In this document: in pieces, positions 25,245-25,404 of the stretch
How positions within the stretch are numbered: the stretch's first letter is position 1
Layout of the letters: each line of letters starts with the position of its first letter
Source of the DNA: Neofusicoccum parvum
Lineage: Eukaryota > Ascomycota > Dothideomycetes > Botryosphaeriales > Botryosphaeriaceae
Length of the DNA stretch: 64,000 bases
Direction: 5' to 3'
NCBI GenBank assembly: GCA_020912385.1
Contig: CP087210.1
Span: forward strand, 1,054,001-1,118,000
Notes under the pieces: model-generated
Told to the model about the DNA's origin: nothing
Database searches by the model: none
The model's input: the letters and a program-made list of their open reading frames with translations, nothing else
Translations under genes and position numbers: made by a program

Positions 25245-25249
25245 AAAAA
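25245..25249 (-). terminator. RNA polymerase III terminator of tRNA-Pro
   Basis: A run of five T on the minus strand begins eight bases past the 3' end of the tRNA, as expected for Pol III termination. Confidence 0.75.
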
Positions 25250-25257
25250 GAATGCTG

Positions 25258-25404
25258 GGGCCCAGCCGCGAGTCGAACGCGGGACCTCTCGCAGTTCAGA
25301 AGAAAGCTCCCAAAGCGAGAATCGTAACCACTAGACTGGATTCGGTATTAGTCATCCTGTAGGTGTTGAAGAGGGAGGGGGAATGGTCACTCACCCACTG
25401 GGCC
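25258..25404 (-). tRNA. tRNA-Pro(UGG) with two introns, one of spliceosomal type in the D arm
   Basis: Three exon pieces, 25404-25395 (10 nt), 25335-25309 (27 nt) and 25293-25258 (36 nt), add up to a 73-nt tRNA. The acceptor stem GGCCCAG pairs with CTGGGCC in all seven positions, although its 5' strand lies beyond the insertion; the anticodon stem CTCGC/GCGAG and T stem CCGCG/CGCGG are also complete. The loop TTTGGGT holds anticodon UGG (25312-25310). The 15-nt intron 25308-25294 is at the canonical site after position 37, where yeast tRNA-Pro(UGG) also has one. The 59-nt insertion at 25394-25336 sits between positions 10 and 11, inside box A. Box B (GTTCGACTC) is intact. Gene or recent pseudogene cannot be decided from sequence alone, but all pairs are kept. 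Confidence 0.93.
25336..25394 (-). other. 59-nt spliceosomal-type intron inside tRNA-Pro
   Basis: The insertion starts GTGAGT, has GACTAAT with the branch adenosine 12 nt before the end, and ends CCAG. Length, donor, branch site and acceptor match the protein-gene introns of this window. Removing it exactly restores TGG-TCTAGTGG, the normal positions 8-19 of tRNA-Pro. It has no stretch of four T that would stop Pol III. Its terminal CAG followed by TCTAGTGG partly rebuilds box A, differing from the uninterrupted box at two positions. Confidence 0.85.

Follow-up and report, generated by a model that had tools for sequence, protein, structure and literature searches.

Spliceosomal-type introns in nuclear tRNA genes of Neofusicoccum parvum, including all tRNA-Pro genes found

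A tRNA-Pro(UGG) gene with two introns

We analyzed a 64,000-nt stretch of contig CP087210.1 of Neofusicoccum parvum (hereafter, the window). Its minus strand carries at positions 25404-25258 a tRNA-Pro(UGG) gene, read directly from the sequence, in which an extra intron in the D arm accompanies the canonical tRNA intron. Exon 1 (25395..25404) covers tRNA positions 1-10 with the acceptor 5' strand, which forms 7/7 pairs with the 3' acceptor strand. Between positions 10 and 11 lies a 59-nt intron of spliceosomal type (25336..25394; GTGAGT...GACTAAT...CCAG), delimited by its splice signals, the possible cut registers, and a decoy scan (see below). The motif GACTAAT, which we take to be the branch site because of its likeness to the consensus, places the predicted branch-point adenosine at 25348, 12 nt before the intron end. 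Exon 2 (25309..25335), assigned from the cloverleaf, contains the remaining D arm, the 5' strand of the anticodon stem, the anticodon TGG, and G37, and is followed by a canonical intron of 15 nt at 37/38 (25294..25308), for which a 4-bp exon-intron helix is possible. Exon 3 (25258..25293), likewise assigned from the cloverleaf, contains the 3' strand of the anticodon stem, the variable loop, the T arm, the acceptor 3' strand, and the discriminator. The B box GTTCGACTC (25270..25278) is intact, before splicing an A box (CAGTCTAGTGG; one mismatch to TRGYNNARNGG) is re-formed over the 3' splice junction (25328..25338), and a Pol III terminator of five T residues is present at 25245..25249; all of these features lie on the minus strand, and the B box and terminator were read directly.

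Removal of both introns leaves 73 nt with 7/7 acceptor pairs, 5/5 pairs in both the T stem and the anticodon stem, and the anticodon TGG. The sequence-only reading of the window had reported the 59-nt insertion at 10/11, the 15-nt canonical intron, and a distance of 12 nt from the branch-like motif to the intron end; direct reading reproduced the coordinates, the cloverleaf, and the T5 terminator, and 12 nt follow the presumed branch adenosine. The ViennaRNA minimum-energy fold of the unmodified spliced sequence (Pro-1; 72 and 73 nt, with G37 omitted or replaced) contained no cloverleaf, and minimum-energy folding is uninformative for an unmodified tRNA.

Neither ARAGORN at default settings nor Rfam reported a tRNA in the window, and ARAGORN with introns allowed misnamed the locus as a Glu tRNA with a 54-nt intron. 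Thus, a tRNA finder that allows one intron near 37/38 can overlook these genes or name them wrongly, as the ARAGORN result shows. The window also contains, at approximately 30.1-32.1 kb, an amidase gene with three ordinary introns starting with GTACGT, GTGAGT, and GTAAGT, as judged against homologues. Its best named matches were in Botryosphaeriales (Diplodia seriata and Aplosporella), and a 534-residue Neofusicoccum parvum protein is identical to it over stretches of 199, 64, 109, 31, and 88 residues.

Interrupted tRNA genes across the genome

We searched the assembly containing the window (44.0 Mb, 18 contigs) for further genes of this kind. When the spliced Pro tRNA served as a DNA query, the window copy was the sole match and the paralogues were missed; therefore, we used pattern searches (B box plus terminator, anticodon arms, and a T-loop splice motif) and then read the matched stretches. 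One B-box/terminator pattern matched at 157 places, with the contigs after C10 sampled less fully by that pattern. We found at least 29 spliceosomal-type insertions in at least 28 tRNA genes for Pro, Ala, Leu, Arg, Ser, Phe, Glu, Val, and Trp. Here, we discuss a tabulated set of 28 insertions in 27 genes; the 29th insertion, in a third Phe gene (L081), is 54 nt long and has the same signals. Two of the 28 introns, both in Arg genes, were found solely through the pattern containing the splice motif, and the other 26 came from the tRNAs' own patterns, from neighboring matches, or from the sequence-only reading. For comparison, the Rfam tRNA search of the genome gave at least 52 places, at least 49 of them above the cut-off (63 of 860 candidates scored), and ARAGORN gave at least 101 matches on the collected loci after de-duplication, which become approximately 92 presumably uninterrupted genes when eight interrupted genes and one odd locus (L104) are subtracted.

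The tabulated genes comprise Pro(UGG) (two), Pro(AGG) (four), Pro(CGG) (three), Ala(AGC) (four, one of them with two insertions), Ala(CGC) (one), Ala(UGC) (one), Arg(CCU) (two), Leu(CAG) (three), Ser(GCU), Ser(AGA), and Ser(UGA) (one each), Val(CAC) (one), Trp (one), Glu(UUC) (one), and Phe (two). The extra introns, 50-65 nt in length, lie on the 5' side and in the D arm, in the anticodon stem, or in the T loop, namely at 9/10, 10/11, 11/12, 16/18, 18/19, 19/20, 24/25, 25/26, 30/31, and 57/58 in the numbering used here. Most interrupted genes also have a canonical intron, and the 27 tabulated genes span 133-212 nt. In one Ala(AGC) gene (L133; C4:464460-464950, minus strand), the introns at 19/20 (D loop) and 57/58 (T loop) occur together with the canonical intron. 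As a separate observation, introns at the canonical position often have a length of about 48-80 nt, which is long for a nuclear tRNA, and they vary among copies of one tRNA (L033, L039-L041, L082, L097, L107, L142-L144, and L174).

The second tRNA-Pro(UGG) gene has a 54-nt intron (GTAGGC...AACTAAC...TAG) in the T loop at 57/58, and its D arm has no insertion. Hence, when this genome's tRNA-Pro(UGG) genes were compared for the insertion seen in the window, both proved to carry an extra intron, but the D-arm site at 10/11 was specific to the window copy. The interruption extends to all nine tRNA-Pro genes found, which represent three anticodons, and all three Leu(CAG) genes found carry an extra intron at one and the same site. 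A search with anticodon arms allowing three mismatches yielded two Ala(CGC) genes and eight of the Pro genes but not the window copy, which was caught by another anticodon-arm search, and intron-free Pro copies of unusual sequence might escape both. Because all nine tRNA-Pro genes found carry an extra intron, every proline codon should need the removal of a spliceosomal-type intron to be read, unless undetected intron-free copies exist.

Several loci were set apart from the 28 insertions. L104 (C10:1506140-1506660, minus strand) is an Arg(CCU) gene with a D-loop insertion (GTAAGT...CACTAAC) whose 3' end, as placed by the tRNA structure, is TCG and not AG; a pseudogene or dead copy, an assembly error, or an odd splice site are all possible. 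The second copy at L145 and the upstream piece at L176 are partial copies with remnants of T-loop introns. The latter belongs to a pair of tandem Arg tRNA 3' halves with T-loop introns (L174/L176; C4:2796560-2797060), whose upstream half, read from the 3' half only, has an altered T loop (CTCG) and a weak branch site. Among the tabulated genes, Ala-AGC-3 has GC at the 5' site and a B box two mismatches off.

Other pattern matches were rejected: L092, L109, L111, L138, L139, L153, L154, L159, L160, L161, L163, and L167 were not tRNAs by eye, L093, L125, L126, L135-L137, L155, and L156 were repeats, and L173 and L175 look like protein genes. Four of the repeats (L093, L135, L136, and L137) form a dispersed family of about 200 nt that ends in a T run, followed by the B-box-like GTTCGATTCC; Rfam gave no matching family for it, and it is perhaps a short Pol III element or another RNA. 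Another repeat, in which GGTTCAATTCCCAGCGGGGGCGGATC or a near variant is followed by T runs, occurs at about nine places, including L125, L126, L155, and L156; it is not a tRNA by eye, Rfam had no match for L126, and the repeat is perhaps a transposon end.

Splice signals, internal promoters, and paralogues

The 5' end is GT in 27 of the 28 tabulated insertions and GC in one, with G at position 5 in all 28, and the 3' end is AG in 28/28; the insertion in the third Phe gene is alike in its signals. A branch-like motif, for which a script picked the best one per intron, was present in 28/28 (CTAAY or CTGAT in 27 and TTAAC in one), and its A lies 9-15 nt upstream of the 3' end of the intron. In each gene, one to four cut registers yield the identical mature tRNA, and exactly one of them is GT/GC-AG, compared with 0/25 for the canonical introns of the same genes. 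Log probabilities summed over the introns presuppose independence and equal base frequencies; since paralogues are not independent, these sums were not taken as a P value. After splicing, 7/7 acceptor pairs formed in 25 of the 27 genes and 6/7 in Ala(UGC), with Glu scored without its discriminator base; at least 6/7 acceptor pairs together with a 5/5 T stem were present in 26/27, the exception again being Glu, owing to this scoring. The Glu and Trp insertions were taken from sequence read-outs; the script misread the Glu end and the Trp anticodon arm.

We also scanned 352 kb of collected loci (overlaps counted repeatedly) under strict rules, namely 7/7 acceptor, 5/5 T-stem, and 5/5 anticodon-stem pairs and an A-box-like D arm across the junction. 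With the real motifs, 1473 candidate introns were reduced to 22 distinct introns with a full cloverleaf in 21 genes, one of the 22 being an alternative 3' end within a single Leu gene; six of the 27 genes in the table, as well as the third Phe gene, did not pass these rules. Decoy motifs gave 0/1024, 0/1444, and 1/1595, the single hit lying inside a canonical intron. These near-zero decoy results, together with the 28 further insertions in tRNA genes of this genome, indicate that the insertion in the window is not a chance event, and the earlier claim of a spliceosomal-type D-arm intron in a nuclear tRNA-Pro(UGG) gene is thereby backed by sequence. By eye, the extra introns also resemble introns of protein genes (the three in the amidase gene and one in each of two probable protein genes). 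Judged by their ends, 5' consensus, and branch motif, they look like U2-type introns.

Canonical tRNA introns are removed by an enzyme different from the spliceosome, and the extra introns could in principle share that route, with GT-AG being coincidental. Cutting by the tRNA splicing endonuclease has been proposed for the red alga Cyanidioschyzon merolae and for nucleomorphs, algal systems whose tRNA genes are known to have additional D-arm and T-arm introns, and helices of the bulge-helix-bulge type do arise by chance in some of the introns found here. Such a helix of at least 4 bp was possible in 1/28 extra introns, 7/25 canonical introns, and 14% of random pairs, in a weak test that did not separate the two kinds of intron. 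The co-occurrence of GT/GC-AG and a branch-like motif in 28/28, set against no GT/GC-AG register among the 25 canonical introns, and the narrow ranges of length and branch distance argue against removal by the endonuclease, which we consider highly improbable.

The introns also stand in a regular relation to the internal promoter. Those at 57/58 interrupt the B box after TTCG (or TTCA), directly ahead of the A that follows. A perfect GTTCRANYC occurs 11-12 nt inside the intron in 10 of the 14 T-loop introns and a one-mismatch B box at 12-13 nt in three more (13/14 within one mismatch in total), whereas none of the 14 introns at other sites contains a B box within one mismatch. In 2000 shufflings of the T-loop introns, the mean number of perfect B boxes was 0.15 and the maximum was three. 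Hence, the T-loop intron seems to bring a replacement Pol III B box. Seven insertions lie in the A box or adjoin it, and in 7/7 (a raw count with no random comparison) the gene before splicing still has an A box with at most one mismatch, placed in the exon, over the 5' site, or, as in the window gene, over the 3' site. In addition, a run of at least four T residues lies within 46 nt downstream of all 27 tabulated genes.

Spliceosomes usually act on Pol II transcripts, and the introns might accordingly be spliced from Pol II precursors, arising by read-through or from host genes. The downstream T runs, the B boxes that are kept or replaced, and the A boxes within one mismatch in 7/7 D-arm cases speak against such precursors, as does fission yeast U6, which is made by Pol III and has a spliced mRNA-type intron according to the part of PMC10484740 consulted; we give Pol II transcription little credence.

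Comparison among paralogues showed where an intron is present in one copy and absent from another. Over 25-28 nt, the spliced junctions of Ala(AGC), Ala(CGC), Ser(GCU), and Ser(AGA) were identical to intronless paralogues, and those of Trp, Phe, and Arg(CCU) differed from theirs at one position; Glu(UUC) genes with and without the intron matched side by side by eye. For Pro, Leu(CAG), Ala(UGC), Ser(UGA), and Val(CAC), the search turned up no intronless paralogue, so the intron ends in these genes were placed from the cloverleaf alone. The Ala(AGC) copies exist in four states, with no extra intron (L043), a D-loop intron (L146), a T-loop intron (L134 and L145), or both (L133). Among 11 chosen pairs of paralogues, mature tRNAs were identical in eight, and intron sequences agreed at 214/248 signal positions and at 218/357 of the remaining positions. 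Higher conservation of the signals than of the rest is what selection on splicing would leave, although gene conversion may also even out copies. Across families, similarity over the first 27 nt was highest between a Pro(AGG) and an Ala(AGC) T-loop intron. This likeness may reflect movement from one tRNA family to another, but part of it is explained by the splice and B-box signals that both introns share, and the comparison had no control.

The least probable alternative, to which we attach hardly any weight, is that the interrupted copies are pseudogenes left by chance intron insertion while intact copies do the work: it draws on the intronless paralogues in Ala(AGC), Ala(CGC), Ser, Trp, Phe, and Glu, on the partial or odd copies (L104, the second L145 copy, and L176), and on a review of eukaryotic D- and T-arm insertions, as far as its text was available (PMC4090602), but it conflicts with the interruption of all nine tRNA-Pro and all three Leu(CAG) genes found, with mature parts that are identical in 8/11 pairs while the introns differ, least at the signals, and with the substitute B boxes in most T-loop introns. 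The sequence-only reading had named intact tRNA-Pro(UGG) copies elsewhere, combined with silence of this locus and its divergence in relatives, as the sign of a pseudogene; with 0/9 tRNA-Pro genes intron-free, the pseudogene reading fails for the group within the reach of the search.

Proposed maturation and known precedents

The introns and splice signals read in these genes, the restored cloverleaves, presence and absence among paralogues, the lack of an intron-free gene among the Pro genes found, and the substitute B boxes are best accommodated if these are functional Pol III genes. Very probably, the spliceosome removes the 50-65-nt U2-type intron, and the tRNA splicing endonuclease cuts out the usual one at 37/38. 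We infer the following order of steps. TFIIIC would bind the A and B boxes, the B box being intron-borne in the T-loop genes, and Pol III would transcribe a precursor containing one to three introns, from which the spliceosome would take out the GT-AG intron or introns. The tRNA could then fold, and its ends and canonical intron would be processed. In genes with a T-loop intron, removal would have to precede folding for end processing.

A wider reading, for which we claim some plausibility but which we would not call probable, is that the T-loop introns are a spreading family. By carrying its own B box, such an intron would keep a host with a split B box transcribable, and it may have moved among the Pro, Ala, and Arg families, with reverse splicing and gene conversion as conceivable routes. 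In the end, every proline tRNA would have come to need the spliceosome, which would tie the translation of all proline codons to splicing.

The spliceosome is not known to mature tRNAs, and we know of no report of spliceosomal introns in nuclear tRNA genes. Among the papers listed in searches of the open literature, no title or opening of an abstract reported any. A spliceosomal intron in a Pol III gene as such is already known, with U6 as the precedent: the U6 snRNA of Schizosaccharomyces is a Pol III transcript with a spliced mRNA-type intron (PMC10484740, in the part consulted), and a paper of 1990 cited there (Frendewey et al.) refers in its title to a B-box match inside U6 introns. The intron-borne B box of the T-loop tRNA introns would work alike in principle. 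Unlike U6, however, which is itself a spliceosomal RNA and whose intron is thought to stem from reverse splicing near catalytic nucleotides, the hosts here are tRNA genes for nine amino acids, interrupted at several sites and mostly carrying a second, canonical tRNA intron. As far as we found, the new elements are the tRNA host class, the number of introns, the apparent need for splicing in all proline tRNAs, and the intron-borne B boxes.

Extra introns of other kinds offer further comparisons. According to the accessible portion of one review (PMC4090602), eukaryotic D- and T-arm insertions mostly occur in one of many copies and are supposed pseudogenes, with nucleomorphs and C. merolae as exceptions, and how the shortest nucleomorph introns are excised is not understood. 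From the excerpts consulted, one C. merolae tRNA has three introns (PMC9602550), and bulge-helix-bulge (BHB)-mediated disruption is described for this alga, with TFIIIC-independent transcription suggested (PMC3978253). In contrast, the introns of the present genes bear the signals of spliceosomal introns, and each promoter box is either retained or substituted. The canonical 37/38 introns occur in most of the same genes but differ from the extra ones in place and in having no GT-AG register in 25/25. Spliceosomal-type introns are also on record, by the title of a 1993 paper by Rogers, in fungal nuclear rRNA genes (18S rDNA); these hosts are likewise non-coding RNA genes, but Pol I genes rather than tRNA genes.

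Maturation of tRNA and splicing of mRNA are treated as separate pathways. In this fungus, the spliceosome is seemingly required for the proline tRNAs, and two splicing machines would act on one short precursor. These genes thus provide natural tests of the spliceosome on Pol III transcripts, of internal promoters that survive interruption, and, through pairs with and without the intron in one genome, of intron gain at exact sites.
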